A stretch of 64,000 nucleotides of DNA, taken from contig NZ_CP019070.1 of NCBI RefSeq assembly GCF_001956695.1, positions 868,001-932,000 of the forward strand, read 5' to 3'. This DNA comes from Poseidonibacter parvus (GTDB taxonomy: Bacteria > Campylobacterota > Campylobacteria > Campylobacterales > Arcobacteraceae). The notes under the pieces are model-generated. The model made no database searches. It saw only the letters and a list, made by a program, of their open reading frames with translations, and was not told the origin of the DNA. The translations under genes and the position numbers were made by a program. Below are positions 17,374 to 40,100 of the stretch, piece by piece; positions within the stretch are counted from its first letter, which is position 1; each line of letters starts with the position of its first letter.

Positions 17374-17406
17374 TGATACTTTTCTAATACTCTTTTCTAA
17401 TATACT
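17374..17406 (+). promoter_or_regulatory. family-1 repeat promoter of the PhnD-like/kinase operon
   Basis: TGATAC at 17374 and TAATAC at 17385 are 11 bp apart and each is followed by a T-rich tail. The -10-like TATACT lies at 17401-17406, 27 bp after the first repeat. There is no good -35 box, so the repeats would place an activator there. The same layout recurs at 20090 (+) and 27743 (-). It begins 3 bp after the pepA stop. Confidence 0.7.
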
Positions 17407-17435
17407 AAAAAATAAAAATATTTAAAGGAGTACTT

Positions 17436-18218
17436 ATGAAAAAAATTATATTTTTTACACTTATTGTTACATACTCAATGGCTACGGAAATTACACTAGG
17501 TATTGTTCCTCAACAAAGTCCGCTTAAGCTTGCAAAAAAATGGATTAAAGTCACTGATTATTTATTTAAAGAGACAGGTATAAAAGTTAATTTTAGAACT
17601 GAAAAATCAATACCTCAATTTGAAAAAGAATTAAAAATGGGAACTTATTGTATTGCATATATGAATCCTTATCATTTTACAGTAGCAAATAAATCTCAAA
17701 AATATGAAGCTTTTTTAAGAGCAAAAAAGAATATTGTAGGTATTTTCCTTTCAAAAGACAAAGAAGTTGATTTTAGTAAAGAAAATTTAAAAGGAAAAAC
17801 TTTTTTATTTCCAGCTCCAAATGCTTTTGCTGCAACTCTTTTAACTAAATTTGAATTTAAAGAAAAATTTGGATTTGATATAGATAAAGAAGCTAAAGTA
17901 CTATACGTTAATTCCCATGATTCTGTTTACAAGGGAATTTCTAGAGGTATTGGATACCTTGGTGGTGGAATTATAAGAACTTATAATAATTTTAAAAGTA
18001 AAAATGATAAAGATAATATAAATATTGTTTATAAAACTAATCCTTATCCTAGTCATCCTTTTGCATATCATCCAAGAGTTAGTAAAGAAGTAGTCTTAAA
18101 AATACAAAATGCTTTTTTAAATATGCCTGATGATATAAAAGAAATATTAAGTATAAAAGATTTTAAAATTACAAATACCCAAGAATTTGATATAATTAAA
18201 AATATTGGTGTAAAGTAG
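17436..18218 (+). CDS. PhnD-like periplasmic substrate-binding protein
   Basis: A 260-residue secreted protein. A signal peptide (1-16, cleavage likely after YSMA) is followed by ITLGIVPQQSPLKLAKKWIKVTDYL, the start seen in phosphate/phosphonate-type binding proteins (PhnD family), with YMNPYHF near residue 75 and NSHDSVYKGISRGIGYLGG near 165-185. There are no ABC permease or ATPase genes beside it; instead a membrane histidine kinase follows 6 bp later. This suggests a sensory co-receptor, like AioX for AioS in arsenite sensing, rather than a transporter part. The mature protein has one cysteine (C72). The ligand is unknown. AAAGGAG precedes the ATG. Confidence 0.82.
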   Translation: MKKIIFFTLIVTYSMATEITLGIVPQQSPLKLAKKWIKVTDYLFKETGIKVNFRTEKSIPQFEKELKMGTYCIAYMNPYHFTVANKSQKYEAFLRAKKNIVGIFLSKDKEVDFSKENLKGKTFLFPAPNAFAATLLTKFEFKEKFGFDIDKEAKVLYVNSHDSVYKGISRGIGYLGGGIIRTYNNFKSKNDKDNINIVYKTNPYPSHPFAYHPRVSKEVVLKIQNAFLNMPDDIKEILSIKDFKITNTQEFDIIKNIGVK

Positions 18219-18224
18219 GTTTTT

Positions 18225-20087
18225 ATGTCTTTTAAATTTAGATTTATACTTTCCTTTGTTTTATTAGAAATATTTTTTATTGTTTTAATTGTAAGTGTTA
18301 ATTTCTTTACAATTAAAAACTCATCTGATAAATTAATTTCAGAAAAGATTGAATCAAACGTTACTTTTATCGAAGAGCTTATAAAAGTGCCTATGAGTAT
18401 ATTTGATTTAGCTACTTTAGATAACCTTGTTGAGAATTCTGTTAAATATTTAAATTCTATTGTTATTCTAGATACTCAAAATAGAATTTTAGCTAGTTCT
18501 TATTCATATAAATATTTACCTATTGAAGACCTTATTAAATTAAAAAGAAATAAAGACGTCTTTATTAATAATAATAGTTATAAAATCATATTTAATGAAA
18601 TATATGAAGAGAATGTATTATTAGGATCAGTGTATGTTATTTTTGATACCACTAGTAATTCTCAATTTATTGAAAAAAGTAAAAATACTACTTTCTTAAT
18701 TATTTTATTAGAAATCTTGATTTCTATAATACTTTCTTATTTAATTGGAAATAGAGTAACTAAAAAACTAGATGATTTATCCTCTATTGCTAAAAGAATT
18801 GGTAAAGAAGAGAATACCTCTATTCCTTATTTAGATTCAAGTGATGAAATTGGTATCTTGGCTAATTCAATGGATAGAATGCAAACAAATTTACAAAATA
18901 GAAATAATACAATAATACAATCAAATAAGCTTCTTGTAAAACAAAAGGAAGAATTAGAAGTTGCAAATAAAGTAAAAGATGATTTTTTAGCAAATATGAG
19001 TCATGAATTGAAAACACCTCTAAATTCAATTAATGTTCTTTCTTCAATAATGAAAAAAAATAGTAAAAATACTTTTAGTGAAAAAGAAGTAAAAAATTTA
19101 GAAATTATAAATAGTTGTGGTAAAGATTTATTATTTTTAATTAATGATGTTCTCGATATATCAAAACTAGAAGCAGGGAAAGTTTCTATAAATAATAGTG
19201 ATGTTGATATTTATAATCTTACAACTATTATCAAAGATATGTTTTTCACTCAATTTAAAGATAAAAATGTAGATTTTTATTTTGAATGTGATAAAAATAT
19301 TAATTCAATTTATAGTGATGAACGAAAAATTAGTCAAATAGTAAAAAACTTTTTATCAAATGCTTTAAAATTTACAAGTGAAGGAAAAGTTTCTTTAATT
19401 GTAAAAGAAAAAGATGAAAATATTCTAATTGAAGTAAAAGATAGTGGTATTGGTATTAATAAAGAGCAAATAGATGATCTATTCGATCGTTTTAAACAAG
19501 TTGATGCAAGTATCTCTAGAAAACACTTAGGAACAGGTTTAGGATTAGCTATCTCAAAAAATCTTGCTGAATTGTTAAAAGGAAATATTACAGTTGAAAG
19601 TGAATTTGGTCATGGCTCAAAATTTACACTATCTATTCCTAAAAATATAAATGAAATAGAAATTAAAAATAATACTATTGTAAGTAAAGATATTATTCCT
19701 TCTCATACTAATAATTTATATGAAACAATGCCTGAAAAAAAACCAGTAATAGTTGAAGATATTAAAAGAAAAAAGATTTTAATTTATAATAATGATCATC
19801 TTTTGTTTTTTAATATAATAATAAAACTAAAGAAAAATAATGAAATTCTACAAATAAATACAGAAAATGAATTTTTAGATGAACTTAATAATAAAACTAT
19901 TGATGCTATTATAATTGATATAGATAAATTATCAGAAGATTTTATAAATAAGATTTTGTTAAATAAACATAAGAAGTTAATAATTATTACAAGTAATGAA
20001 GTAAATGAAGAAATAAAGATAAAAGCTAAAAGCATAATTTTAAAACCCGTTGACTTAAATAAAATTATATTTTCTTTAGATGATTAA
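18225..20087 (+). CDS. membrane histidine kinase with C-terminal pseudo-receiver
   Basis: A 620-residue sensor kinase. Two membrane spans (about 7-30 and 154-175) flank a periplasmic sensor of about 120 residues. A HAMP linker (about 176-228), a coiled coil, a HisKA domain with H260 in NMSHELKTPLNS, and a HATPase domain (VKNFLSNALKF, VKDSGIGI, GTGLGLAIS) follow. Residues about 510-620 look like a receiver in which the acidic pair is replaced by asparagines (ILIYNND), while an aspartate (IIIDID) and the KP pair (LKPVDL) remain. The preceding binding protein is the probable ligand-sensing partner. The core is closely similar to the kinase at 25111-26640, so the two are paralogues. Confidence 0.92.
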   Translation: MSFKFRFILSFVLLEIFFIVLIVSVNFFTIKNSSDKLISEKIESNVTFIEELIKVPMSIFDLATLDNLVENSVKYLNSIVILDTQNRILASSYSYKYLPIEDLIKLKRNKDVFINNNSYKIIFNEIYEENVLLGSVYVIFDTTSNSQFIEKSKNTTFLIILLEILISIILSYLIGNRVTKKLDDLSSIAKRIGKEENTSIPYLDSSDEIGILANSMDRMQTNLQNRNNTIIQSNKLLVKQKEELEVANKVKDDFLANMSHELKTPLNSINVLSSIMKKNSKNTFSEKEVKNLEIINSCGKDLLFLINDVLDISKLEAGKVSINNSDVDIYNLTTIIKDMFFTQFKDKNVDFYFECDKNINSIYSDERKISQIVKNFLSNALKFTSEGKVSLIVKEKDENILIEVKDSGIGINKEQIDDLFDRFKQVDASISRKHLGTGLGLAISKNLAELLKGNITVESEFGHGSKFTLSIPKNINEIEIKNNTIVSKDIIPSHTNNLYETMPEKKPVIVEDIKRKKILIYNNDHLLFFNIIIKLKKNNEILQINTENEFLDELNNKTIDAIIIDIDKLSEDFINKILLNKHKKLIIITSNEVNEEIKIKAKSIILKPVDLNKIIFSLDD

Positions 20088-20089
20088 AA

Positions 20090-20122
20090 TGATATTATTT
20101 TGATACTTTTACTTAGTATAAT
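20090..20122 (+). promoter_or_regulatory. family-1 repeat promoter of the OmpR-type regulator operon
   Basis: TGATAT at 20090 and TGATAC at 20101 are exactly 11 bp apart, and TATAAT lies at 20117-20122, again 27 bp after the first repeat. This is the same architecture as at 17374 and on the minus strand at 27743. The site precedes the gene of an OmpR-type response regulator, which suggests autoregulation. Confidence 0.7.
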
Positions 20123-20151
20123 AAATAACGTTTTGGAATAGGTATTAATAA

Positions 20152-20850
20152 ATGAATATTAAAAAACATTTGAGCATTCTTTATATTGAAGATGACGAAA
20201 TAATGGCTTTAAAATTAAAAAGCATATTAGAAAAAATATTTTATGAAGTAATTATCGCAAAAAATGGTCAAGAAGCCTATGCAATCTTTAAAGGTACTCA
20301 TAAAATTGATCTAATTATTAGTGATATAAATATGCCCAAAATGGATGGTTTAGAATTCCTTGAAAAGGTAAGAGAAATAGATGAGAATATTCCTTTTATT
20401 TTTTTAACAGGAAGAAATGAATCAAAAAAAATGTTAAGAGCAATAGAGCTTAGCATTACAAATTATTTATTAAAACCCATTGATTTAGACAAATTACTTC
20501 TAGCAATAAATAAAATTCTAGAAAAAAAAATCAAAGATCAAGATTTGTTAGAAAATGATTTAATTATTAATAAAGATTATTCTTGGAATAAAAGTAAAAA
20601 TATATTATATAAAAATAATATTATTATAAAACTTACTAAAAAAGAGTTACAATTTATTGGTTTTTTATTGTCTTCTCCAAATAGGATCTATTCTGAAAGT
20701 GATATTATCGATTATATCTGGAAAGATGAATTTAGTTCTTTAAACTATAGTTCAAATTTAAAGAACTTAATAGTAAGACTAAAAAAGAAAATACCAGATT
20801 TAAAGATTATAAATCATTATGGCCTTGGCTATAAAATAGAAATTAACTAA
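20152..20850 (+). CDS. OmpR-type response regulator (first circuit)
   Basis: A 232-residue DNA-binding response regulator. The receiver (1-125) has the acidic pair EDD (13-15), phosphoacceptor D58 in IISDINMPKMDG, the switch threonine in FLTGR and the lysine in LLKPID. The C-terminal winged helix (about 135-232) shows LTKKELQFIGFLLSSPNRIYS and the recognition-helix region NLKNLIVRLKKK, ending GLGYKIEIN, as in the Trans_reg_C family. Regulators of this type bind direct repeats spaced 11 bp, the pattern seen in its own promoter. The kinase at 18225 is its most likely partner. A REC-PAS gene follows after 13 bp. Confidence 0.93.
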   Translation: MNIKKHLSILYIEDDEIMALKLKSILEKIFYEVIIAKNGQEAYAIFKGTHKIDLIISDINMPKMDGLEFLEKVREIDENIPFIFLTGRNESKKMLRAIELSITNYLLKPIDLDKLLLAINKILEKKIKDQDLLENDLIINKDYSWNKSKNILYKNNIIIKLTKKELQFIGFLLSSPNRIYSESDIIDYIWKDEFSSLNYSSNLKNLIVRLKKKIPDLKIINHYGLGYKIEIN

Positions 20851-20863
20851 AGAGATTAATATT

Positions 20864-22129
20864 ATGAATGAATTACAAACATATATGAAAAAATTAAATG
20901 TTTTATATGTTGAAGATGAAAAACCTGCAAGAGAAATATTTTCAAGAATACTAAATCGACAATTTACAAATGTAACTATTTGTGAGAATGGTTTAGATGG
21001 TTATTTAGCATATAAAGAAAGTTTTGATAAAGAAATCAAGTTTGATTTAATTATTAGTGATATTAATATGCCAAAAATGAGTGGTATTGAATTAGTTGAA
21101 AAGATCAGAGAAGATGATAATGAAACATTAGTTATATTAGTAACTGCAAGAAGTGAAGCTAATGTAATAATGAAGGCATTAGAATTACAAGTTACAAATT
21201 ATATAACTAAACCAATTGATATTAATAAAACTAATGAAGTAATAGTTAGTACATGTGAAAAAATATATTTAAAATCTCGTTTACTTGATAAGCAAAAAGA
21301 ATTGGAAACCTACACTAAAACAATTGAAGATGTTGCTTTAGTAGTAAAAATAGATGTGAATAATAATGTAACATATGTAAATGATGTTTTTTGCTCTAAT
21401 ACAGGCTATTCAAAAGATGAAATTATTAACAAAAGTTCTAATTTTTTATTTAATCAAAGAAATGAAAAACAAATAAATGATATGTGGAATATTATTAAAG
21501 AAGGTAATACTTTTAACGATACAATAAAAAGTATTACTAAAAATAATGAAATTTATTACAATAAAGTTACTATTGTTCCAGTAATTGATAATAATAATTC
21601 TATGATTGTAGAATATGTATTTATAGGTTTTATAACAACTGATGAAGAAAAGAAAAAACAAGAATTAAATAAAAAGTTATTGCATAGTATTGCAGATAGT
21701 AAAAAAGAAAAATTTAATATATTAAAAGAAAAAGAATCATATGAAGAAAATATAAGTTTGTTAAATAGAACTATATTAAATGCAGAAGAAAGATATGCTT
21801 CTTTATTAAAAACAAATCAAAGTCTTTTAGTTCAATTAGAAGCATATGAAACAAATAGTTTAGGTACTTCAGATAATCATATAAAAACACTTAAAAGTAA
21901 AAATGATGAAATTGCAAAACTACAGAAAAATTTAATTATTATGAAAAACGATAAGTTATCAATGTCTAATAGATTAACTGCATTAGAAGAAACTTTAGCT
22001 TCTAAAAATCATAGTATAGAATTTTTAGAACAGAGTCATCAAATAGATAAAAAAAAGATTGAAAGTTTAGAACGTATAATCTTAGATTCGGAAAAAAATC
22101 CAGATAAAAAAACAAAGAATTTCTTCTAA
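20864..22129 (+). CDS. REC-PAS-coiled-coil protein
   Basis: A 421-residue soluble protein. The receiver (about 10-130) is complete, with D66 in IISDINMPKMSG, LVTARSE and the TKPIDI lysine. A PAS domain follows (about 150-265, TYVNDVFCSNTGYSKDEII), then a long coiled coil (about 270-415). There is no kinase, GGDEF, EAL, HD-GYP or DNA-binding output, so it probably acts by binding a partner. The protein at 42330 has the same layout. It is co-transcribed with the OmpR-type regulator and meets the HD-GYP gene tail to tail. Confidence 0.87.
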   Translation: MNELQTYMKKLNVLYVEDEKPAREIFSRILNRQFTNVTICENGLDGYLAYKESFDKEIKFDLIISDINMPKMSGIELVEKIREDDNETLVILVTARSEANVIMKALELQVTNYITKPIDINKTNEVIVSTCEKIYLKSRLLDKQKELETYTKTIEDVALVVKIDVNNNVTYVNDVFCSNTGYSKDEIINKSSNFLFNQRNEKQINDMWNIIKEGNTFNDTIKSITKNNEIYYNKVTIVPVIDNNNSMIVEYVFIGFITTDEEKKKQELNKKLLHSIADSKKEKFNILKEKESYEENISLLNRTILNAEERYASLLKTNQSLLVQLEAYETNSLGTSDNHIKTLKSKNDEIAKLQKNLIIMKNDKLSMSNRLTALEETLASKNHSIEFLEQSHQIDKKKIESLERIILDSEKNPDKKTKNFF

Positions 22130-22134
22130 ATCAG

Positions 22135-22158
22135 ATTTTAGTTGTTAAATTCTAAAAT
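22135..22158. terminator. weak hairpin between convergent genes
   Basis: ATTTTAG (22135-22141) pairs with CTAAAAT (22152-22158) across a 10-base loop in the short gap between the convergent REC-PAS and HD-GYP genes. It could end transcription in both directions, but the stem is short and A/T-rich. Confidence 0.35.
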
Positions 22159-23951
22159 TTATCAATATAGCTGTCTCGTACAAGTAAGAAATCATCTAAA
22201 TTATCTAGCATTAAATCTACAAGTTTTGGATCAAAATGTTTCCCTGATTCATTTTTTATTAAATCTAAAACTTTTTTTAATGGCCACGCTTCTTTATAAC
22301 ATCTAGCACTTCCAAGTGCATCAAATACATCAGCAATTGCAGTAATCCGTCCATAAATATGAATATTATCACCTTTTAATCTTCTTGGATATCCTGACCC
22401 ATCCCATTTCTCATGATGTTCATAAGAAACTTTTGCTGCAGCTTTTAATATTTCTCTATTAGAGTTTTTCAACATTTCATAACCAATTTCTGCATGACTT
22501 TTCATAATATGAAATTCATCTTGCGTTAATTTCCCTGGCTTGTTTAAAATGCTGTCAGGAATTCCAACTTTCCCAATATCATGCATTGGTGAGGCTATTT
22601 TTAATAATTGTGCTTCTTTTTCTTCTAAACCATATTTTTTAGCAAGGATATATGAATATTCTGCAACTCTTTTTACATGATTTGCAGTTTCATTTGATCT
22701 ACTTTCAGCAATTGATCCTAAAGTAAAAATTACATCTTTTTGAGTATCTTCAATTTCTTGATGTAAATTGATTGTTTCCGTAATATCATTACCTAAGGCT
22801 ACATATTCTAGAGTATTACCAAATTGATCTTTTATAATAGTAAAGTTAAAATTAATATAACTAATTGCTTCTTCATTTTTAAATGTAACAATTTTTTGAA
22901 TATTCTTATTTGCTATTAATGATTCTAAAATTAAAGAAATATCTTCTTTTTCTAAGTTGCTTAAAATAAATGAAATATCTTTTTGTATTAAATCTGATGT
23001 ATCATAATTTGTTACTTCTAAGAATTTTTTGTTTACATAAGTTATTTTAAGATTTGTATCAATTTTAACTAATAAGTTTGAATGATTAACCATATTTTGG
23101 TATTCATTAAGAAGATGTCTTTTACTTGTTACATCTCCTTTATAAGTATCTATTTCACTTATTAAAGAATTATTTAAAACTTCACTATCTGTAATATCTT
23201 TTGATAATGATATATATTCTATTATATTATTATTAAAATCTAATATAGGAGAAAAAGATGCAGAAACTATATACTCTTGATTGTATTTAGTTCTTTTTTT
23301 TAATTTTCCTTCCCAAGTTTTTTTATTTTTTAGAGCTTCCCAAATTTCATAAGTTTTTTCTATGGAAGTATCTTTAATCACATCAAAATCAAATTTACTA
23401 CCTAATAATTCATCTTTTGTATAATTAGATAATATTTCATATTGTTTATTTATATAGGTATTTTTTCCTTCAAGATCAAACTTTTTTACAATTAGATTTT
23501 TATCAACAACGTTTTTGTATTGCTTTAATAAGTTTTTAGTTTCTTCTGCTTGTATCTTTTCACATACTTTATATAATTTATTGACTAATTGATTAAGAAT
23601 AATTGGTTTTATAAGATAATGATTTATATTAAGTTCTATAGCTTCAAGTAAGGTATCTGTTTCATTTCTTGCTGTTGTAAGAATTATGGGAATATCTTTA
23701 TTCTCTTCTCTAATATGTTTACACATTATTAAACCATCCATAATAGGCATATTAATATCACTTACAATAATATCAATAGGATTGTCTTTATAAAGCTGCA
23801 AACCTATTTTACCATTTGAAGCAGTATAAACATTTGCGAACATTCTTTTTAGTATTTTAGTAAACATTTCAGCTGTTTTTAGACTATCTTCTACGTACAA
23901 AATGTTTAATTTCTTTAAAAACTTTTTATTATCCAATATAATGCCTTTCAT
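22152..23951 (-). CDS. REC-PAS-PAS-HD-GYP c-di-GMP phosphodiesterase
   Basis: A 599-residue regulator. The receiver (about 12-135) has D65 in IVSDINMPIMDG and LIKPIIL. Two PAS domains (about 145-265 and 285-400) read ENTYINKQYEILSNYTKDELLG-like and KITYVNKKFLEVTNYDTSDL-like repeats. The HD-GYP domain (about 405-595) contains SPMHDIGKVGIPDSIL, HHEKWDGSGYPRRLKG and ADVFDALGS, so the metal ligands and GYP motif are intact and c-di-GMP hydrolysis is expected. It is the last gene of the FIST operon, 39 bp after the REC-kinase gene, and links that sensor to c-di-GMP and hence probably to attachment. Confidence 0.93.
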   Translation of the reverse strand: MKGIILDNKKFLKKLNILYVEDSLKTAEMFTKILKRMFANVYTASNGKIGLQLYKDNPIDIIVSDINMPIMDGLIMCKHIREENKDIPIILTTARNETDTLLEAIELNINHYLIKPIILNQLVNKLYKVCEKIQAEETKNLLKQYKNVVDKNLIVKKFDLEGKNTYINKQYEILSNYTKDELLGSKFDFDVIKDTSIEKTYEIWEALKNKKTWEGKLKKRTKYNQEYIVSASFSPILDFNNNIIEYISLSKDITDSEVLNNSLISEIDTYKGDVTSKRHLLNEYQNMVNHSNLLVKIDTNLKITYVNKKFLEVTNYDTSDLIQKDISFILSNLEKEDISLILESLIANKNIQKIVTFKNEEAISYINFNFTIIKDQFGNTLEYVALGNDITETINLHQEIEDTQKDVIFTLGSIAESRSNETANHVKRVAEYSYILAKKYGLEEKEAQLLKIASPMHDIGKVGIPDSILNKPGKLTQDEFHIMKSHAEIGYEMLKNSNREILKAAAKVSYEHHEKWDGSGYPRRLKGDNIHIYGRITAIADVFDALGSARCYKEAWPLKKVLDLIKNESGKHFDPKLVDLMLDNLDDFLLVRDSYIDKF

Positions 23952-23990
23952 CTTTTACAGATTAATTTTATAATTATTACCTTAAATATT

Positions 23991-25121
23991 TTAAGATAGG
24001 AATATCTCAAATTTCAATCCTATATTAGAATTGGATATTTTTAGGTCACCATGCATATAGTTTTTTACTATTAAGTTAACCATATATAAACCAACGCCTG
24101 TTCCATTTTCTTTTGTTGTGTAATATGGGTCTAATATTTCTTCAATATTATTATTAGATATCCCACCAGCATTATCTTCTAATGTAATTAGAATTATATC
24201 AGATTCTTTTTTAACTGAAATATTTATTATTTTATTGACATCTTCATTATTAGGATATTTTTCTATGAAAGCATCAATTGAATTATTAACAATATTAACT
24301 ACAACTTGTGTAAATTCCATTTCTGTGCCTAATATTTCTATTGTTTCATCAATATCTATATTCAATTTAATATCATTAATATGTATTTTACTTTTTAATA
24401 ATTCTAAAGCTTTATTTATTGCTTCTGAAATATAATAATTGCTTTTTATTTTATTAGGATTAAAGAAATCTAAGAAGCTATCAATCGTTTCATTCATATA
24501 TGTTATTTGATTTTTAGTATTTTCTGAATGTTCTTTAATATATTCATCATTTATTTCACCATATTCATGAGAGAGTTTTACATCTGCACAATATAAAGAT
24601 AAGGTATTTAAAGGTTGTTTTAATTGATGAGATATTAATCCTATTATTTCTCCCATACTTGCCATTTTACTGTTATGTACAAGTAGACTTTCTGTTTTTT
24701 CTAGTTTTTCATCTTTTTGTTTTTTTTGATTGTAAATATCAATATATACATTTAATTTTGAATAGAATAATTCATCATTAATAGGTTTTGTAATATAGTC
24801 AACAGCTCCTAAGTCATAACCTTTGCTCTTATATTCATCTTTATTATAGATTCCTGTTATAAATACAATTGGTATATCTTTTGTATTTTCAATTTCTTTC
24901 AAGTATTGTGCGAATTCAAAACCATCAATATCAGGCATTTGGACATCACATAAAATTAAATCTATTTTATTTTCTATTATGACATTCATTGCATCTTCAG
25001 CACTTAGTGATTTGAAAATATTTAATTCAAAGTTTTCTTTTATTAATAGTTCTAATGAGTATAAATTATCTTCAATATCATCAACTAATAAAATATTAAA
25101 ATCTTTAATATTAGTTTTCAT
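23991..25121 (-). CDS. REC-histidine kinase (HisKA with HQxxQP box)
   Basis: A 376-residue soluble kinase with an N-terminal receiver (about 8-130; VDD pair, D59 in ILCDVQMPDIDG, ITKPIND) and a kinase core with the phospho-histidine in GLISHQLKQPLNT, N-box NIVNNSIDAF, LEDNAGGI and GTGVGLYM. There is no transmembrane segment. Such proteins usually relay from a receiver to a kinase. The same layout occurs at 41118-42233, but there the phosphoacceptor aspartate is a glutamate. The gene start overlaps the end of the preceding kinase gene by 11 bp, implying coupled translation. Confidence 0.92.
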   Translation of the reverse strand: MKTNIKDFNILLVDDIEDNLYSLELLIKENFELNIFKSLSAEDAMNVIIENKIDLILCDVQMPDIDGFEFAQYLKEIENTKDIPIVFITGIYNKDEYKSKGYDLGAVDYITKPINDELFYSKLNVYIDIYNQKKQKDEKLEKTESLLVHNSKMASMGEIIGLISHQLKQPLNTLSLYCADVKLSHEYGEINDEYIKEHSENTKNQITYMNETIDSFLDFFNPNKIKSNYYISEAINKALELLKSKIHINDIKLNIDIDETIEILGTEMEFTQVVVNIVNNSIDAFIEKYPNNEDVNKIINISVKKESDIILITLEDNAGGISNNNIEEILDPYYTTKENGTGVGLYMVNLIVKNYMHGDLKISNSNIGLKFEIFLS

Positions 25122-26640
25122 TGTTGTACCTTTGTTTAATTATATTATTTATTATTGATTCAATTTTTGTATTTTCTTCTAATTTTATCGAATCATACTT
25201 ATTTTTTAATATCGATGACTCTAAATTTTCAAGGTTTTCTATATTTTCATCGAATATTATAAGTGCATTATTTTCTTCTTGATCATTTAAATATTTATCT
25301 AATTTGATTGTTGAATCAAAAGGGGTAACTAAAAAATGTTTTTTTAATGCAATTGTAAATGAAAAGAGTTTTAAAGAATTTGAATGTAATAACAATATAT
25401 TCATCTCTTCTTTTTTATTGTTAATTATATTTTCTTCTAGTTTTTCTTCTTGCTCTTCTTGTTCTTTATTTTCTATTTCATCTAGTATCATATAAAAAGA
25501 TTCTTTCTTAGGAACCTTAAGAGTAAAAATACTACCTTTATCAAGTTCACTTTCTACACTTAAAGAACAATTAAGCAAAGTAGCTAATTCCTTAGATATA
25601 GCAAGCCCAAGACCTGTACCTTTAAATTCTCTATTACATGAAGTTTCTATTTGTTTGAATCTGTCAAAAACATTTTTTAGATTATTCTTATGTATTCCAA
25701 TTCCAGTATCTTTTACAGTAATATTAAAATAATTTTTGTTATCTCGAAGAGAAATTTTTATTTCCCCTTTCTTTGTAAATTTAATAGCATTACTTAATAG
25801 GTTTTTTAATATTTGCTTTAAACGAAGCTTATCTGAGTATACATTGAAATTTACATCTTCAAATTCATATGTAAAGTTAACAAGATCTTTTTTTACTAAG
25901 GGTTTTAATATTTCATATTCATCTAAAATAAATTCTTTTATATCAAATGTATCTTTTAAAATATTTATTCTTCCTGCTTCTATTTTTGACATATCTAAGA
26001 CATCACTTATTAAATCTAAAAGATCATGTGCACTATTGTTTATTATCGATATATTTTTTATTTCTTTAGGAAGAAGAGTATTCTCTTTATTTTTTTTCAT
26101 TATTGAAGATAAGATGATTATAGAATTTAATGGAGTTTTTAATTCGTGACTCATATTTGCTAAGAAATCATCTTTTATATTATTAGCTTTTATTAACTCT
26201 TCTTTTTGTTTCTCAAGTAATTTATTAGACATAAGAAGTTTTTCAACATTTAAACATGCATTAACACTAAGATTCAATTTAGGTAATAAGCTTTCAAACA
26301 TTGATCTGAAAAATAAACAATCTGCACTTAAGTTTTTAGAAATTAAAAAAATTATTCCATTATCTAATTTTATTGATAGTATTTTTTTATCTTTGTCTTC
26401 TATTAAATTTATTGAGTCTGTATACATTAAATGTTTTTTATAATCAAATTCAATAAATCTTCCAAAAGAATCAAATTTTTTACAAGGATTATTTTCATCA
26501 CATAAGTAAAACTCACCATAAACTGCATAAGTTTCATTTATAAAAGTTCTTAATACTTCATGTATCATTTCTTTTAAGTCATTACTGTTTCCAATAGCAC
26601 TATGACATTTAAATGCTACTGATAGCTGTTCAACTAACAT
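25111..26640 (-). CDS. soluble histidine kinase with C-terminal pseudo-receiver
   Basis: A 509-residue kinase lacking membrane spans. The N-terminus (about 1-135) resembles a GAF-like sensor (not firmly assigned). A short coil leads to HisKA with H165 in NMSHELKTPLNS and a HATPase domain (LKNLLSNAIKF, VKDTGIGI, GTGLGLAIS). The last ~100 residues form a degraded receiver: the acidic pair is lost (LLLHSNS) and the KP motif is now KL. The frame is open to 26658, but the first ATG is at 26640. It overlaps the FIST stop by 7 bp, so the FIST protein is the obvious sensory partner. The core matches the kinase at 18225. Confidence 0.9.
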   Translation of the reverse strand: MLVEQLSVAFKCHSAIGNSNDLKEMIHEVLRTFINETYAVYGEFYLCDENNPCKKFDSFGRFIEFDYKKHLMYTDSINLIEDKDKKILSIKLDNGIIFLISKNLSADCLFFRSMFESLLPKLNLSVNACLNVEKLLMSNKLLEKQKEELIKANNIKDDFLANMSHELKTPLNSIIILSSIMKKNKENTLLPKEIKNISIINNSAHDLLDLISDVLDMSKIEAGRINILKDTFDIKEFILDEYEILKPLVKKDLVNFTYEFEDVNFNVYSDKLRLKQILKNLLSNAIKFTKKGEIKISLRDNKNYFNITVKDTGIGIHKNNLKNVFDRFKQIETSCNREFKGTGLGLAISKELATLLNCSLSVESELDKGSIFTLKVPKKESFYMILDEIENKEQEEQEEKLEENIINNKKEEMNILLLHSNSLKLFSFTIALKKHFLVTPFDSTIKLDKYLNDQEENNALIIFDENIENLENLESSILKNKYDSIKLEENTKIESIINNIIKQRYNNEN

Positions 26641-27677
26641 AACATACCCAACACACAAGTTCTATTATAAAAGCTTAAATACTCATCACTTGTGTTTGCA
26701 ATTTCACCTACTGAAAGTACACCAAATAATATCGATCCTTGTTTTAATTCTTTTGTAATTTCTTTTAGTTCTTCATCTATAAAAAATGACCTTGAAATAC
26801 AATCAAATATTAATATATTCTTATGGCTATCTAAATCTTTATTTAATTTTAAAATAGCTTTATTCCCTGAATCAATTAAGTTTTGTTTATTCCCTTTTAA
26901 AATATTGATTGTAGAATTTTGTGGAATATCTCCTACTATAACTATGTTATTATCCTTATCTATTGCAATAGGATCTCTTACAATTACTTCTTTATCAAAT
27001 TTTATTATTCCTAATGGATAAGATTTTGATATAGTAAAAAAGTTGTCTTTAGTAATTTTTTTGCCAGAATCTTTTTCTACAAAATCTTTATATACTTCAA
27101 ATGAACTAGAAAAATTTAAAGTTTTTAATACATTCTTTTCACTACTAGTAACTACAAAAGGACCTTGAAGTTTTTCCCAAGCATTTTCTATTCCTATATG
27201 TAACTTAGCATTAGTAGATAGAACAATTGCAGCATTTTGATGTAAAGTTCCATCATGGAAAATCACAGGGTCTTGTTTAAGCGTCATTTTCCCCGAACCT
27301 CCACCAATAATCTTTGTTTGCTCAGAAACACTTTCAAATAAGTTATCTAAAAATAATGATATATCAGAACTTAATGCATCAAATAAAACGATTAAACTTT
27401 CTTTGTCTTGAAAGGTTTTCTCATTTGATTCAAAGGTTTTCATATCTTTTATTAGGTCTACATTAAAATTATCATCAATAACTGAAGCTAATAAACCTTC
27501 TTTATAATGAGAATTATTTAAAATGATTTCAGGAAAAATTGCTCCTGATATTTTAAAATCTTCTAATTTATCTATATCAAGATTTGTATTTTCAGTAATA
27601 AGAATTAAATATCTTGAATCTTTGTTATTTTCAACTATAAAGTCTTCAATATTCTTATAATACTTTGGACTAATCAT
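26634..27677 (-). CDS. FIST-domain sensor protein
   Basis: A 347-residue soluble protein with FIST N (about 20-190; IVLFDALSSDISLFLDNLF, IIGGGSGKMT, NAAIVLST) and FIST C (about 200-347; ending FGVLSVGEIANTSDEYLSFYNRTCVLGML, quoted here only as a short region). FIST domains are predicted small-ligand sensors found with kinases and c-di-GMP enzymes. The gene leads a four-gene operon with a soluble kinase, a REC-kinase and an HD-GYP protein. A strong purine-rich ribosome site (AGGGAGAGGAAAG) precedes the ATG. The ligand is unknown. Confidence 0.88.
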   Translation of the reverse strand: MISPKYYKNIEDFIVENNKDSRYLILITENTNLDIDKLEDFKISGAIFPEIILNNSHYKEGLLASVIDDNFNVDLIKDMKTFESNEKTFQDKESLIVLFDALSSDISLFLDNLFESVSEQTKIIGGGSGKMTLKQDPVIFHDGTLHQNAAIVLSTNAKLHIGIENAWEKLQGPFVVTSSEKNVLKTLNFSSSFEVYKDFVEKDSGKKITKDNFFTISKSYPLGIIKFDKEVIVRDPIAIDKDNNIVIVGDIPQNSTINILKGNKQNLIDSGNKAILKLNKDLDSHKNILIFDCISRSFFIDEELKEITKELKQGSILFGVLSVGEIANTSDEYLSFYNRTCVLGMLC

Positions 27678-27710
27678 ATCTTTCCTCTCCCTTTAATTTA
27701 TTATTTAATT

Positions 27711-27743
27711 ATTGTATTTGAAAAAAGTATTATAAAAGTATCA
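27711..27743 (-). promoter_or_regulatory. family-1 repeat promoter of the FIST operon
   Basis: On the minus strand TGATAC starts at 27743 and TAATAC at 27732, 11 bp apart, and a -10-like TACAAT covers 27716-27711, 27 bp after the first repeat. The first repeat unit TGATACTTTT is identical to that at 17374. The match in spacing and in the -10 position to the other two sites is the main argument for common control. Confidence 0.7.
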
Positions 27744-30517: not shown

Positions 30518-30549
30518 TTGATTTTGTGTTGATGTTAGTTTGATATATT
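30518..30549 (+). promoter_or_regulatory. family-2 repeat promoter of the TIGR03032/APS-kinase operon
   Basis: TTGAT occurs at 30518, 30529 and 30540 with exact 11-bp spacing. The third runs into TATATT at 30544-30549, forming an extended -10 (TGATATATT). The neighbouring 33355 site matches closely, including ATATTAAT after the third repeat. The predicted transcript starts near 30556 and has a leader of about 110 bases before the ATG at 30669. Confidence 0.72.
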
Positions 30550-33354: not shown

Positions 33355-33386
33355 TTGATTTTAGATTGATATGGGTTTGATATATT
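33355..33386 (+). promoter_or_regulatory. family-2 repeat promoter of tpsA-tpsB
   Basis: TTGAT at 33355, 33366 and 33377, exactly 11 bp apart, followed by TATATT at 33381-33386 (extended -10 TGATATATT). The stretch from the third repeat through ATATTAAT is identical to the site at 30518-30552. Transcription should start near 33393, about 24 bases before the tpsA ATG. Confidence 0.72.
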
Positions 33387-33416
33387 AATTAAATAATTTT
33401 AATGTTAGGAAATAGA

Positions 33417-36400
33417 ATGTTGAAAAATAAGTTTAATTACAAGTCACAATTTAGAATTCTAAAAGGTGGAAAGATATCATTGGTAGTATCAGCAATTTTA
33501 GGATCAGTTGTAATTGCAAGTGCAGCACCAAGTGGTGGAACAGTAACAAGTGGAACTGCAAGTATTTCACAAAATGGGACTGTTACAAATATCAATCAAG
33601 ATTCTTCCAAAGCTAGTATAAATTGGGATGACTTTTCTATTAAAGCAACTGAGACTGTAAACTTTAATCAACCTAATTCATCTTCTATTACTTTAAATAG
33701 AGTAATAGGAAATGAAAAATCTGTTATTAGTGGAGCACTTAATGCAAATGGTCAAGTTTGGATTCTAAACTCAAATGGAGTTTTATTTAATTCTAGCGCA
33801 AGTATTAATACAGCAGGTATTTTAGGAACTACTGCAGAATTATCTGATAGTGATTTTCAAGCTGGAAATTATGACTTCAAAAACACAAGTGACAACTCGG
33901 TAATAAACCTAGGAACAATAAATGTTTCAAATGGAGGTTCAGTAGTATTAGCTTCAAATGAAGTAAAAAATTCTGGAACTATAAAAGCTGTAAAAGGAAA
34001 AGTACACCTAGTAGGTGCAGATTCTTACTCTTTAAACCTAAATGGAAATTCTTTAGTAAACCTAACAGTAAATAAAGGTGTACTAGATTCTATGGTTGAA
34101 AACTCTGGAAGTATTATAGCTGATGGTGGAGAAGTTTACTTAACTACAAATGCAGTTAATGAACTTTTAAAAGGTGTAGTTAATAATACTGGTATTATTG
34201 AAGCTAACTCTTTAGATGGTTTAATGGGGAAGGTTGAAGTATTCGCTCATGGTGGCGAAGCTAAAGTTGATGGAACTATTGAAGTTAAAGATGGTTTTGT
34301 TGAGACTTCGGGGAAAGAAGTAACAATAAATAATACAACAAAAGTACAAGCTGAAAATTGGTTGATTGATCCTACTGATATTTCAATAGATGATTCAAGT
34401 GCTTATGAAACATCCTTAAATGCGGGAACAAATGTGACAATAGAAACACAAGCAGCTGGTAGCGAAGATGGAGATATCAATGTAAATGATGAAATTGAAT
34501 GGAACACAGCTAATACACTTACTTTAAAAGCTCATAATAATATCAATATAAATAAAGATATCACAGCTACAAATGATAATGGAAAACTAGCACTACATTA
34601 TGGTCAAGCAAATGTAAATGCAGGTAATGATTCAACATATAATGTAAATGCAGTAGTAAATCTGAAAGCTGGAGATAACTTCGAAACAAAACAAGGAAGT
34701 GATGGTGTAGTTACATCATGGAAAGTAATAACAGAACTAGGAAGTGAAGGCTCAACTACTGGAACTGATTTACAAGGTATAAATGGCAATCTAGATGGAA
34801 GTTTTGTGTTAGGAGCTGATATTGATGCAACTTCCACTTCTACTTGGAATGATGGAGAAGGTTGGGATGCAATAGGAGAAGATTCTGAAGGTGGAGGATT
34901 TAATGGGAATTTCAATGGTCTTGGTCATGTAATAGATAATCTTTTTATAAGTAGAAAAGAAGAAGATTTTCAAGGACTTTTTAGTTCAATAAATTCTTCA
35001 ACTATTCAAAATATCAGTTTAACAAATATTGATATTGAAGGAGGATATCTTGTTGGTGGACTTGTTGGTATAATGATTAACAGTACAATAACGAACTCAC
35101 ATGCAATAGGAAATGTCTATGGTGATGAATATGCTGGTGGACTTGTTGGATATTCTGAAGATTCTACAATAACGAACTCACATGCGATAGGAAATGTCTA
35201 TGGTAATTATGTTGTTGGTGGACTTGTTGGTGGACTTGTAAATTCTACTATTACAAACTCATATGCAACAGGAAGTGTCGATGGAGATAAATATGTTGGT
35301 GGACTTGTTGGATATTCTGGAGATTCTACAATAACGAACTCACATGCGATAGGAAATGTAACAGCAAAATATACTGATGGTGGGGGACTTATTGGCTATT
35401 CCGAAGATTCTACAATAACGGATTCACATGCAACAGGAAGTGTCGATGGCGATGATTATATTGGTGGACTTGTTGGCTATTCTCAAAATTCTACAATAAT
35501 GAACTCATATGCAACAGGAAGTGTCGATGGCGATGATAATGTTGGTGGACTTGTTGGAAAAAATGATAATTCTAATATTACAAGTTCATATGCAACAGGA
35601 AACGTTTTTGGTGATGATGATATTGGTGGACTTGTTGGAGACAATGAAACTAATTATGATGCTGAAATTGTTATGGGTACGATCACTGACTCATATGCAG
35701 AAGGTAATGTAATAGGAAGTTCTGACACTGGTGGACTTGTTGGAGATTTACAATCTGGGACAATCACAAATTCATATGCAACAGGAAGTGTTGATGGCAA
35801 TTATCTTGTTGGTGGACTTGTTGGACATTTAGAATCTGGGACAATCACAAATTCATATGCAACAGGAAGTGTCGATGGCAGTGATAAATATGCTGGTGGA
35901 CTTGTTGGATATTCTAAAGATTCTACAATAACGAACTCATATGCAACAGGAAGTGTTGATGGCAATTATAATGTTGGTGGACTTATAGGGGATGATGATG
36001 AGAGTGATGTTTCTAATAGTTTCTACGATAAAACAATAAATGAAAATATGCCAGATGAATCATCATATGGAAAAACAACAAAAGAGATGCAGACAATAGA
36101 TACCTTCAGTAATGTATCATGGGACATAGAAATAAATGAAGCACAAAAAAAAATCTATCCATATTTAACGTTTGATACTAATGGTGGTGCAATTTGGAAA
36201 ATAGGAAAGTACCCAACTGCAATAAACTATATACTAAGTACTGCTAATACAATTTATAATGGAACTTCTCAATCCCTTGATAATTTTTGGACAAACTCTG
36301 TTTTTGGAGAAGATGGTAGTTCTTTAGTATATGGAGATGATTATAAATTTATTTATGATGCTTCTATTGTAAACGGTTTAACAAATACAGGTACATATAG

Positions 36401-38384
36401 TGATATTTCTATAAAGTTATTAAATGATGATTATGAATTTGATGAAACAGGAACAAATACTTTAGGAAGTTTAACAATTACTCCAAAAGCAATAACAGTA
36501 AGCGCGGATGATTTAAATAAAGTATATGGATCTACAGATGAAGCTTTAACATATACTGCAAGTGGATTAGTAGGAACTGATACATTAGCTGGAAGCTTAA
36601 AAAGAGAAGTAGGTGAAGATGTAGCAGATTATGCAATTTCACAAGGAACATTAACAAACTCAAACTATAAAGTTACATTCACAGATGGAAAATATACAAT
36701 TACTCCAAAAGCAATAACAGTAAGTGCAGATAATTTAACAAAAGTATATGGACAAGAAGATGAAACTCTAACATATACAGCAACAGGATTATTAGGTGAA
36801 GATACATTAGTTGGAAGTTTAAAAAGAGCAGCTGGTGAAAATGCGGGGGATTATACAATCTCTGAAAATACAGCTTTAACAAACTCAAACTATACAGTTA
36901 CATTCACAGATGGAAAATATACAATTACTCCAAAAGCAATAACAGTAAGCGCAGATGATTTAACAAAAGTATATGGTCAAGAAGATGCAACTTTAACATA
37001 TAAAGCAACAGGATTATTAGGGGAAGATACTTTAGCTGGAAGCTTAAAAAGAGAAGTAGGTGAAGATGTAGCAGATTATGCAATTTCACAAGGAACATTA
37101 GCAAACTCAAACTATACAGTTACATTTACAAATGGAAAATATACAATTACTCCAAAAGCAATAACAGTAAGTGCAGATAATTTAAGTAAAGTATATGGAC
37201 AAGAAGATGCAGCTTTAACTTACACAGCAAATGGATTAGAAACAGGTGATACATTAGTTGGAAGCTTAAAAAGAGCAGAAGGTGAAGATGCTGGTGAATA
37301 TACAATTTCACAAGATACAGCTTTAACAAACTCAAACTATACAGTTACATTCACAGATGGGAAATATACAATTACTCCAAAAGCAATTGAAGTTCGTGCA
37401 GATGATTTAACAAAAGTATATGGAGATGAAGATGAAGTATTAACATATACTGCAAATGGATTAGTAGGTGAAGATACATTAGTTGGATCTTTAAAAAGAG
37501 CAGCTGGTGAAAATGCTGGTGATTATACAATCTCTGAAAATGTAGCTTTAACAAACTCAAACTATACAGTTACATTTGAAAATGGAAAATATACAATCAC
37601 TCCAAAAGCAATAACAGTAAGTGCAGATGATTTAACAAAAGTGTATGGACAAGAAGATGCAGCTTTAACTTACACAGCAAATGGATTAGAAACAGGTGAT
37701 ACATTAGTTGGAAGCTTAAAAAGAGCAGAAGGTGAAGATGCTGGTGAATATACAATTTCACAAGATACAGCTTTAACAAACTCAAACTATACAGTTACAT
37801 TCACAGATGGGAAATATACAATTACTCCAAAAGCAATTGAAGTTCGTGCAGATGATTTAACAAAAGTATATGGAGATGAAGATGAAGTATTAACATATAC
37901 TGCAAATGGATTAGTTGGACAAGATACTTTAGCTGGAATTTTACAAAGAGTAGAAGGTGAAGATGCTGGTGATTATGAAATTTCACAAGGTAATTTGGCA
38001 AATTCAAACTATGTAATTTCATTTGAAAATGGAATATATACAATCACTCCTGCTACAAATAGTAATATAGATAATATTATAGCTACTATAATAAAAACAA
38101 ATGTAAAAGTACCAACTGCACCAGTAAAAGTAGTTGTAAACAACAATCCAAATATTGTTTCACAACCAGAAGCAGAAGAAGTAGCTACACAAATAGTAAC
38201 ATTAAGTGAAATAAAAACAAATCAAGAGAATAGTCAAACAAATGAAGGTTCACAAACACAACAAGATGTAAGAGTTCCAATTTCAAAAAATTCTGTAATA
38301 GAATTAGTAAATGGTGGAGTTAACCTTCCAGAAGGTGTTGATCAACAATTTTTTGTAGCAAATACAGATAGTCAAGAAAACTAA
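33417..38384 (+). CDS. two-partner secretion exoprotein/adhesin TpsA
   Basis: A 1655-residue secreted protein. The N-terminus has an extended signal peptide (about 1-38, ending VVIASAA) and a TPS/haemagglutination domain (about 40-190: NINQDSSKASINWDDFSI, FNQPNSSSITLNRVIG, QVWILNSNGVLFN). A beta-helical stretch follows, then 12 GLUG-type repeats (about 540-870), an MBG-like region and seven MBG/YDG-type repeats of about 75 residues. The frame opens at 33402, but the ATG at 33417 has TAGGA before it and gives the normal signal. tpsB follows 18 bp downstream. The protein is expected at the cell surface or in the medium; adhesion or biofilm is the likely role. Confidence 0.93.
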   Translation: MLKNKFNYKSQFRILKGGKISLVVSAILGSVVIASAAPSGGTVTSGTASISQNGTVTNINQDSSKASINWDDFSIKATETVNFNQPNSSSITLNRVIGNEKSVISGALNANGQVWILNSNGVLFNSSASINTAGILGTTAELSDSDFQAGNYDFKNTSDNSVINLGTINVSNGGSVVLASNEVKNSGTIKAVKGKVHLVGADSYSLNLNGNSLVNLTVNKGVLDSMVENSGSIIADGGEVYLTTNAVNELLKGVVNNTGIIEANSLDGLMGKVEVFAHGGEAKVDGTIEVKDGFVETSGKEVTINNTTKVQAENWLIDPTDISIDDSSAYETSLNAGTNVTIETQAAGSEDGDINVNDEIEWNTANTLTLKAHNNININKDITATNDNGKLALHYGQANVNAGNDSTYNVNAVVNLKAGDNFETKQGSDGVVTSWKVITELGSEGSTTGTDLQGINGNLDGSFVLGADIDATSTSTWNDGEGWDAIGEDSEGGGFNGNFNGLGHVIDNLFISRKEEDFQGLFSSINSSTIQNISLTNIDIEGGYLVGGLVGIMINSTITNSHAIGNVYGDEYAGGLVGYSEDSTITNSHAIGNVYGNYVVGGLVGGLVNSTITNSYATGSVDGDKYVGGLVGYSGDSTITNSHAIGNVTAKYTDGGGLIGYSEDSTITDSHATGSVDGDDYIGGLVGYSQNSTIMNSYATGSVDGDDNVGGLVGKNDNSNITSSYATGNVFGDDDIGGLVGDNETNYDAEIVMGTITDSYAEGNVIGSSDTGGLVGDLQSGTITNSYATGSVDGNYLVGGLVGHLESGTITNSYATGSVDGSDKYAGGLVGYSKDSTITNSYATGSVDGNYNVGGLIGDDDESDVSNSFYDKTINENMPDESSYGKTTKEMQTIDTFSNVSWDIEINEAQKKIYPYLTFDTNGGAIWKIGKYPTAINYILSTANTIYNGTSQSLDNFWTNSVFGEDGSSLVYGDDYKFIYDASIVNGLTNTGTYSDISIKLLNDDYEFDETGTNTLGSLTITPKAITVSADDLNKVYGSTDEALTYTASGLVGTDTLAGSLKREVGEDVADYAISQGTLTNSNYKVTFTDGKYTITPKAITVSADNLTKVYGQEDETLTYTATGLLGEDTLVGSLKRAAGENAGDYTISENTALTNSNYTVTFTDGKYTITPKAITVSADDLTKVYGQEDATLTYKATGLLGEDTLAGSLKREVGEDVADYAISQGTLANSNYTVTFTNGKYTITPKAITVSADNLSKVYGQEDAALTYTANGLETGDTLVGSLKRAEGEDAGEYTISQDTALTNSNYTVTFTDGKYTITPKAIEVRADDLTKVYGDEDEVLTYTANGLVGEDTLVGSLKRAAGENAGDYTISENVALTNSNYTVTFENGKYTITPKAITVSADDLTKVYGQEDAALTYTANGLETGDTLVGSLKRAEGEDAGEYTISQDTALTNSNYTVTFTDGKYTITPKAIEVRADDLTKVYGDEDEVLTYTANGLVGQDTLAGILQRVEGEDAGDYEISQGNLANSNYVISFENGIYTITPATNSNIDNIIATIIKTNVKVPTAPVKVVVNNNPNIVSQPEAEEVATQIVTLSEIKTNQENSQTNEGSQTQQDVRVPISKNSVIELVNGGVNLPEGVDQQFFVANTDSQEN
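35040..36030 (+). repeat. array of 12 GLUG-type repeats in tpsA
   Basis: Twelve units of about 25-35 residues carrying a GGLVG start and a T-x-x-S-[YH]-A-x-G core, each about 75-105 bp. Units differ in acidic spacer residues, as expected for a beta-helical adhesin stalk. One unit (near 35620-35710) has an insert of about ten residues. Confidence 0.85.
36478..38050 (+). repeat. seven ~225-bp MBG/YDG repeats in tpsA
   Basis: Seven tandem units of about 75 residues, each starting ITPKAI and containing KVYG, LTYTA, GDTL or EDTL, and a closing NSNYTVTF. Bases 37194-37465 are identical to 37644-37915, an offset of 450 bp, so two-unit blocks were recently duplicated. Such arrays vary in copy number between strains. 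Confidence 0.9.
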
Positions 38385-38402
38385 AAGAATAAGGAAATAA
38401 AA

Positions 38403-40100
38403 ATGAAACAAATGAATAAAATAATAACAATATCAGTACTAAGTTCTTCTATTCTTTTAGGAGCAACTGTACCAAATATAAGTGAAATACAAAAACAAGT
38501 AGTACCACCAAAAGATTTAATCAAACAAAAAGAGACTCCACTAGTAGAACTAGGTGGAGTTAAAAAATATGCTCCACCAATGAAAGATGATAAAAGTGGA
38601 AGAACAATCTTTGTAAAAAGCTTTAAAATAGATGGTGCTATTCATGTAAATGAAGATAAGTTGCAAAAACTCATCTCTTCTTATACAAATAAAGATTTAA
38701 CTTTTAACCAATTACAAGAAGTAACAAGTGTAATTACAAAAGAGTATAGAAATCAAGGCTACTTTGTAGCAAGGGCTTATTTACCTGTTCAAAATATCAA
38801 TAAGAATAATGGTGTAATTACAATTGCAATTATTGAAGGAAACTATGGAGAGTTTAAACTTGAAAATAATTCAAGAGTAAAAGATTCTGTAGTTCAAGGA
38901 ATGATTGATAATGCAAAACAAAGAGATAATGTAATCTCAACAAATACACTTGAACGAGCTATGCTTATTATAAATGATACGCCAGGTGTAGTTGTAACTG
39001 CTGCTGATGTAATGCCAGGAAAACAAGTAGGAACATCAGACTTTGCAATTACAACACAAGAAAGTAATCTAATTGATGGATATATTGTAGCTGATAATAC
39101 AGGAAGTAAATATACAGGAAAAAATAGAGTAATGGCTGGAGTTAATGTAAACTCACCATTTAAACTAGGAGATAAACTTTCTATTTCAGGACTTGTTTCA
39201 AATGGAGCAGATTTAAAAAATGGAAGAATAGCATATAGTTTACCTTTGGCTTCAAATGGTTTAAGAGGTGAAATGTCTTATTCTCAAACGAACTATTCAC
39301 TTACAAAAGATTATGAATCATTAGATGCTGTAGGTACCTCAAAAACTTTAGATGCAACTATAACTTATCCAATAAAAAGAACAAGATTAGAGAATCTAAA
39401 CCTATCTTTAAATATTGCTAATAAAGATTTAAAAGATGAAGTAAGAAGTACATCTTCTATCACAAAAAAAGACACAAAATCTTTAAACCTAGGATTAGCA
39501 TATGATAAAAACTATCTAGCCTATGGAAAAAATACACAATCTCAAATAAATTTAAATCTTACATATGGAAAGTTAAACTTTGATGATATTGCAGATAAAA
39601 TACTAGATGAAGCAGGAGCCAATACAAATGGTACTTATTCAAAAGTAAATCTAAAACTATCAAATACAATTGCTTTGACAAATAAATTTACATTTGATTC
39701 GTCTTTAAAAATGCAATATGCTCTAGGAAATAAAAACCTAGATGGAAGTGAAGATTTTTCTGTAGGAGGAGCTAGTGGAGTTAAACTATATCCATCAGGT
39801 GAATTAAGTGCTGAAAATGGATATTTATTAAATCTTGAAGCAAAATATAGATTGCCAAACCTAAATAAACTATCAAATACTGTAGGAGTATTTTATGATA
39901 GAGGAAGAGTTTTTATGTCTGATAATAGTCAAGTAACATTTGAAGCTAAGTCATTACAAGATGTAGGAGTAGGGTATTATGCATCTTATGATAATTTCTT
40001 TGGAAAACTACAAGTAGCATGGAATGCAAATAGTAAAGATGTTACAAGTGAAGAAAATAGAAACTCTAGGGTTTTATTTCAAGGTGGTTTGAGTTTCTAG
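38403..40100 (+). CDS. two-partner secretion transporter TpsB (ShlB/FhaC type)
   Basis: A 565-residue outer-membrane transporter. Signal peptide (1-22), a proline-rich linker (about 25-70), a POTRA_2-type domain (about 70-150: FVKSFKIDGAIHVNEDKLQKLI, YRNQGYFVARAYLP), a second POTRA-like region, and a 16-strand-type barrel to the C-terminus, which ends in an aromatic residue (LFQGGLSF) as outer-membrane barrels do. It exports the TpsA protein encoded just upstream. AAGGAA precedes the ATG. A bidirectional terminator follows. Confidence 0.93.
   Translation: MKQMNKIITISVLSSSILLGATVPNISEIQKQVVPPKDLIKQKETPLVELGGVKKYAPPMKDDKSGRTIFVKSFKIDGAIHVNEDKLQKLISSYTNKDLTFNQLQEVTSVITKEYRNQGYFVARAYLPVQNINKNNGVITIAIIEGNYGEFKLENNSRVKDSVVQGMIDNAKQRDNVISTNTLERAMLIINDTPGVVVTAADVMPGKQVGTSDFAITTQESNLIDGYIVADNTGSKYTGKNRVMAGVNVNSPFKLGDKLSISGLVSNGADLKNGRIAYSLPLASNGLRGEMSYSQTNYSLTKDYESLDAVGTSKTLDATITYPIKRTRLENLNLSLNIANKDLKDEVRSTSSITKKDTKSLNLGLAYDKNYLAYGKNTQSQINLNLTYGKLNFDDIADKILDEAGANTNGTYSKVNLKLSNTIALTNKFTFDSSLKMQYALGNKNLDGSEDFSVGGASGVKLYPSGELSAENGYLLNLEAKYRLPNLNKLSNTVGVFYDRGRVFMSDNSQVTFEAKSLQDVGVGYYASYDNFFGKLQVAWNANSKDVTSEENRNSRVLFQGGLSF

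Follow-up and report, generated by a model that had tools for sequence, protein, structure and literature searches.

Three sensor operons headed by the same element

A stretch of 64,000 nucleotides from the genome of Poseidonibacter parvus, a marine bacterium of the Arcobacter type (NZ_CP019070.1, positions 868,001 to 932,000; hereafter the window, in whose numbering coordinates are given) contains three operons for sensory and signalling proteins, each headed by two TRATAC-type direct repeats with a -10-like hexamer at a fixed distance. An original prediction, made from the sequence without database searches, had placed these repeats at 17374 (+), 20090 (+) and 27743 (-), 11 bp apart and with a -10 box 27 bp after the first repeat; the coordinates, the spacing and the offset were all borne out. 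Box 1 (TGATACT-TTTC-TAATACT, 17374..17391, forward strand) has half-sites starting at 17374 (TGATAC) and 17385 (TAATAC), with TATACT at 17401..17406, 27 bp past its first base. Box 2 (TGATATT-ATTT-TGATACT, 20090..20107, forward strand) has half-sites starting at 20090 (TGATAT) and 20101 (TGATAC), followed by TATAAT at 20117..20122. Box 3 (TGATACT-TTTA-TAATACT, 27726..27743, reverse strand) reads from TGATAC at 27743 through TAATAC at 27732 to TACAAT, which starts at 27716 (27711..27716). The period is thus 11 and the offset exactly 27 in three of three sites, the hexamers are those predicted, and the box promoters have no recognisable -35 element. The repeats had been described as TGATAC or TAATAC, which holds for boxes 1 and 3, whereas the first half of box 2 ends in T instead of C. 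The proposed pattern TRATAC-N5-TRATAC misses this site and is corrected to TRATAY/TRATAC, or better to a repeated TRATACTWTTW. With the hexamer included, TRATAY-N5-TRATAC-N10-TANNNT matches the three boxes and nothing else in the window, against a mean of 0.01 in dinucleotide shuffles of the window, none of which reached three.

All three boxes lie between the preceding gene and the first codon of the operon, and their -10 hexamers end about 29-33 bp ahead of the start codons of the PhnD-like gene (17436), the response regulator gene RR1 (20152) and the FIST gene (27677, reverse strand), so that each stands, as claimed, at an operon head. Operon 1 opens with a PhnD-like periplasmic binding protein (17436..18218, forward; PF12974), followed by HK1, a membrane histidine kinase (18225..20087, forward; HAMP-HisKA-HATPase) whose C-terminal region resembles, by eye, a degenerate receiver. 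The nearest solved relatives of the binding protein are PhnD, PtxB and ArrX; like them it is a PhnD-family periplasmic protein, here beside a histidine kinase, but operon 1 has no adjoining transporter genes and the similarity is weak. Given these relatives, an oxyanion-like ligand is possible, as a lead only. Box 2 starts 3 bp past the HK1 stop codon and heads the operon of RR1, an OmpR/PhoB-type response regulator (20152..20850, forward; REC and Trans_reg_C) and the candidate binder of the boxes. A REC-PAS protein (20864..22129, forward) follows after a 13-bp gap, is probably co-transcribed with RR1, and neighbours it in many relatives.

Operon 3 runs on the reverse strand and encodes a NosP-like FIST-domain sensor protein (26634..27677; PF08495 and PF10442), the soluble histidine kinase HK2 (25111..26658), a REC-histidine kinase (23991..25121) and a REC-PAS-PAS-HD-GYP protein (22152..23951). 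Since the HDIGK and HHEKWDGSGYP motifs are kept, the latter is probably an active cyclic di-GMP (c-di-GMP) phosphodiesterase. In the NosP-NosK-NosR system, the kinase that phosphorylates a REC-HD-GYP protein is under the control of a FIST protein, with an effect on biofilm formation (PMC12570481). In operon 3, too, the FIST gene is joined by that of a neighbouring soluble kinase and by one for a REC-HD-GYP protein, so that by gene content it combines FIST with a histidine kinase and a regulator of the c-di-GMP-metabolising kind, as a NosP-type operon does. It differs in its extra REC-kinase and PAS domains, and in an intact HD-GYP motif that is degenerate in the Burkholderia pseudomallei protein. 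HK1 and HK2 are related to one another; each ends in about 100 residues that resemble a degenerate receiver, and Pfam recognises neither of these ends.

Copies across the genome

Pattern searches of the 2.87-Mb genome found TRATACT-N4-TRATACT-N9-TATAAT, at no more than one mismatch, in five places, all just ahead of signalling genes; the sixth-best match lies inside a gene. The two beyond the window boxes lie upstream of a BLUF gene, by 63 bp, and of the gene for an 835-residue dCache histidine kinase, by 68 bp. A stricter pattern, the one applied across the family, matched this genome four times and its control not at all. At up to three mismatches, the 27 matches hardly exceed the 23 of the reversed control, so we used the five sites only and left weaker ones uninterpreted. 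The repeats without a -10 (TRATAC-N5-TRATAC) match ten times in the genome, several times within genes, and the -10 at its fixed offset is therefore required for specificity. The reach of the proposed regulon, given originally as the three window operons, stands for these and probably extends to the BLUF gene and the dCache kinase. The BLUF blue-light sensor gene (L047:10276-10743; about 632.2-632.7 kb of the genome) is preceded by a gene for a 192-residue protein, which has no Pfam match.

Conservation before orthologous genes

We scanned the upstream regions of orthologs for the box, scoring matches out of 12. Offsets could be 26-28, and the start could lie anywhere within about 250 bp; shuffled upstream sequences reach a score of 10 in 0.6-2% of cases and 9 in 11%. 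Orthologs of RR1 occur in 15 relatives at roughly 40-55% identity. Counting the window's own three sites, boxes scoring at least 10 precede 11 of 16 RR1, 14 of 28 FIST and 8 of 23 PhnD orthologs, whereas no paralogous regulator gene, out of 26, has one. Among the 14 FIST sites, that of L151 is weak and perhaps a chance match, and no box is expected before FIST or PhnD when another gene heads the operon, as in G006, where PhnD lies behind REC-PAS. All 16 RR1 orthologs have a match of at least 9 at about the same place ahead of their own gene, the pattern of an autoregulated regulon. The box is thus kept before RR1, FIST and PhnD orthologs, conservation in relatives having been proposed originally as a check.

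Although offsets of 26-28 were allowed, the offset is 27 in every ortholog site scoring at least 10, and the hexamer there reads TA...T. When the RR1 upstream DNA of nine genomes is aligned, invariant columns concentrate in the box and the -10, which form the main conserved block. The consensus of 27 ortholog sites is TRATACTWTTW TRATACTWTTW n-n-W-R-R TATAAT; conservation of the bases that the search itself fixed is in part built in, while T9, T10, T20 and T21 were unselected and are strongly conserved. A third half-site overlapping the -10 was considered and rejected, consensus columns 23-27 carrying little information. The boxes are a real, conserved and non-random regulatory element, and after the corrections given above and below the earlier interpretation is largely right.

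RR1 and other LKN regulators as candidate binders

RR1 has all the parts of an OmpR/PhoB-type regulator, a receiver that carries the phosphorylatable Asp and a Trans_reg_C winged helix; D58, T86, K108 and N202-L203-K204-N205 are invariant in ten orthologs. Its recognition helix, SNLKNLIVRLKKKIP, which mostly reads SNLKN(I/L)ISR(L/I)R.K.P in orthologs, is unlike the helix of RR2 (KSLTSLVYKINKKLS), the candidate regulator of a neighbouring repeat family, and those of 13 further OmpR-type regulators in the same genome. Searched as a codon pattern, the LKN helix of RR1 matches 66 times in 49 of 104 Arcobacteraceae genomes and never in the control, and its single match in this genome is RR1 itself.

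Across the same 104 genomes, the strict box pattern matches 71 times, against 14 for the reversed pattern. Nearly all of 30 inspected loci are intergenic. With domain calls made partly by eye, about 19 of them precede signalling genes (response regulators, kinases, REC-HD-GYP, GGDEF-EAL and PAS proteins, chemoreceptors) and six a gene for a TolC-type outer-membrane protein, while a few look like chance matches (cytochrome c, a DsbD-like protein, two within reading frames). Helix and box occur together in 32 genomes, the helix only in 17, the box only in seven and neither in 48 (Fisher P 2.5e-8). The association holds under within-genus permutation (P 5e-5), and an excess remains within strata of genus and genome size once this genome is left out (P 0.002), although, the genomes being related, these P values are guides. 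Sixteen of the 71 boxes lie within 1.5 kb of an LKN helix.

Several loci show the box in other settings. In two TolC loci (G063 and G067; Pfam on G067 only) the order is kinase, LKN-type regulator, box, TolC-OmpA, ABC transporter. The cassette of kinase, LKN-type regulator, box and TolC-OmpA is conserved in many Arcobacteraceae (L195:3713-12203, L191:3678-12125, L183, L184), with a box subtype TGATACTTYTKTGATACTTCT and, in L195, an ABC transporter next (Pfam). Elsewhere the box lies directly upstream of genes for OmpR-type proteins with a degenerate receiver as their N-terminal half (L178:11211-11894, L180:8770-9462, L102), Pfam seeing Trans_reg_C alone in the L178 protein; in G015 such a gene comes after FIST-HK2. 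One genome (G082, L186:11034-19751) encodes a putative adhesin of 2905 residues close to two boxes, which precede an OmpR-type regulator and a gene resembling TolC, respectively.

Not all of this favours RR1 as the binder. Seven genomes have a box and no match to the LKN pattern, though two of them (G006 and G093) carry RR1 orthologs which the strict codon pattern fails to catch, and 17 have LKN regulators and no strict box. The helix of L232 (ALKNLLNKLRKKIG), the nearest to that of RR1 in its own genome, is fairly similar. Boxes before FIST and PhnD also persist where there is no close RR1 ortholog (genus g16, G015, G065, G071-G073), so that another regulator must serve there. These observations weigh against an assignment to RR1, and with them comes the explanation that the box is a regulator site whose main binder is another OmpR-type regulator, or several that share it, and not RR1 alone. 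The 67 matches to an RR1 query in this genome, and the near-identical box beside other LKN-type regulators in relatives, for example before TolC genes, would suit it. We nevertheless regard it as unlikely, since a box-like sequence precedes RR1's own gene in every ortholog while paralogs fall short, and RR1 is the sole strict LKN match in this genome. The genomes that have FIST or PhnD boxes and no close RR1 do have LKN-type relatives, which lack a box of their own, and for this reason the box probably belongs to the LKN regulator clade, with RR1 as its representative here. Other LKN-type regulators in relatives seem to use nearly the same box. The original idea of one regulator for the sensor operons, the HD-GYP gene included, thus survives as one regulator family, for which conservation of the box and its co-occurrence with the LKN helix make RR1 the prime candidate, with a specificity that looks to be set at the level of the clade.

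A neighbouring TTGAT family

A second repeat, TTGAT-N6-TTGAT-N6-TTGATAT, has exactly two exact copies in the genome, both in the window (30518-30546 and 33355-33383), preceding a DUF4915/CysC operon and the gene of a two-partner-secretion protein. The two families had been called clearly different. This is right for their flanks (TTGAT-N6 against TRATAC-N5), for copy number (three in TTGAT) and for their position relative to the -10, into which the TTGAT repeats reach, but the TGAT core and the 11-bp period are common to both. Because their helices differ, it is plausible that two regulators, RR1 and RR2, work side by side; RR2 is a candidate for the TTGAT repeats by adjacency. Among RR2 orthologs, the exact triple occurs in this genome only, and the RR2 gene of G003, with a product 86% identical, has two exact TTGAT copies in its vicinity, so conservation of this family is less well supported. 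The two-partner-secretion protein (1660 residues; TPS, GLUG and seven MBG_2 repeats) is encoded with a ShlB/FhaC-type transporter at 33402-40100, beside the sensor circuit.

A model for activation through the box

We think it likely that the box is an OmpR/PhoB-type site overlapping the -35 position, bound by phosphorylated RR1, which would activate its own operon and two sensor operons. The three sites would be copies of one operator-promoter module, in which two head-to-tail half-sites (TRATACTWTTW twice, period 11 bp) take the place of a -35 element and a sigma-70 -10 follows at a fixed distance; with the -10 set at -12 to -7, the box falls at about -39 to -22. Phosphorylated RR1 would bind the half-sites as a tandem dimer and recruit RNA polymerase to a promoter that lacks its own -35, in class II activation. 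It would positively autoregulate its own operon (RR1 and REC-PAS), activate the PhnD and kinase operon and that of FIST, kinase, REC-kinase and HD-GYP, and act also on the BLUF photosensor gene and the dCache kinase elsewhere in the genome. Such a loop would be self-amplifying, the active pathway yielding more sensors and more c-di-GMP phosphodiesterase. The analysis shows the sequences, their spacing, conservation and enrichment, and the co-occurrence with the LKN helix; RR1 as binder, a need for its phosphorylation, activation in preference to repression, the links from the kinases to RR1 and the nature of the signals are inferred.

Proteins of the OmpR/PhoB family occupy direct repeats in head-to-tail pairs. 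The window boxes have this operator design, two direct half-sites of about 6 bp in an 11-bp register like the pho box and the KdpE site, and, by sequence, that of an activator promoter, with a fixed distance to the -10 and overlap of the -35 position. As with the pho box, which overlaps the -35, the candidate binder combines REC with a winged-helix domain; the half-site TRATAC and the targets are different here, and binding is predicted. KdpE binds two 6-bp repeats with an AT-rich 5 bp between them (PMC3264566), and PhoB binds over the -35, a structural model showing it in contact with sigma (PMC3348028). Within the same phylum, a Sulfurospirillum OmpR-type regulator binds CTATA repeats of 11-bp period over the -35, and its own system's promoter region (PMC7755780). 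This tetrachloroethene (PCE) respiration regulon (RR2) resembles ours in its direct repeats in 11-bp steps over the -35 and in targeting its own system; its half-site is CTATW, its outer copies are 17 bp apart, and it serves respiration genes, not sensors.

A protein bound over the -35 position could also block polymerase, and RR1 might then repress its own and the sensor operons. We consider this improbable, because a constant 27-bp spacing from a good -10, with no recognisable -35, is what activation in place of a -35 calls for, whereas repressor sites need no fixed register, and because PhoB, with repeats over the -35, activates, and the Sulfurospirillum regulator has its repeats at the same position. 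Least credible, and very unlikely in our view, is a chance view of the A/T-rich periodic signal that replaces the -35 in Campylobacterota sigma-70 promoters: those of Campylobacter jejuni show such a pattern and no clear -35 (PMC3656092), and the conserved T9-T10 and T20-T21 would suit it, but the conserved R, A and C positions of TRATAC are not T-runs, and the scarcity of the box genome-wide, its absence from paralog promoters and its association with a recognition helix all stand against it. Part of the 11-bp T-run periodicity could still be the normal Campylobacter sigma-70 A/T pattern, which would leave TRATAC unexplained and counts to that extent against the activation model.

Implications for the Arcobacteraceae

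In the open-access literature we found no description of a TRATAC box or of FIST operons in Arcobacter; the regulon is apparently undescribed, while co-control of this kind is ordinary bacterial wiring. The box and RR1 offer a testable regulator-box pair, and hence a regulon, in a family with dozens of unassigned two-component systems per genome. A single promoter code links the blue-light sensor with the PhnD-type sensor and with the c-di-GMP operon of the NosP-like FIST protein; boxes of this kind stand, in relatives, before exporter genes such as those that serve adhesins. What is of wider interest is the sharing of a box among paralogous regulators. It is conceivable, if speculative, that an Arcobacteraceae clade of duplicated OmpR-type regulators has kept one LKN helix and one box, so that paralogs with differing inputs converge on shared promoters for sensors, c-di-GMP turnover, chemotaxis and adhesin export (TolC/type I secretion), a lineage-wide super-regulon of the surface lifestyle with cross-regulation among paralogs. 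If true, such paralogs, alike in helix and box, would lend themselves well to the study of how separate specificities are retained or lost once regulators have duplicated.

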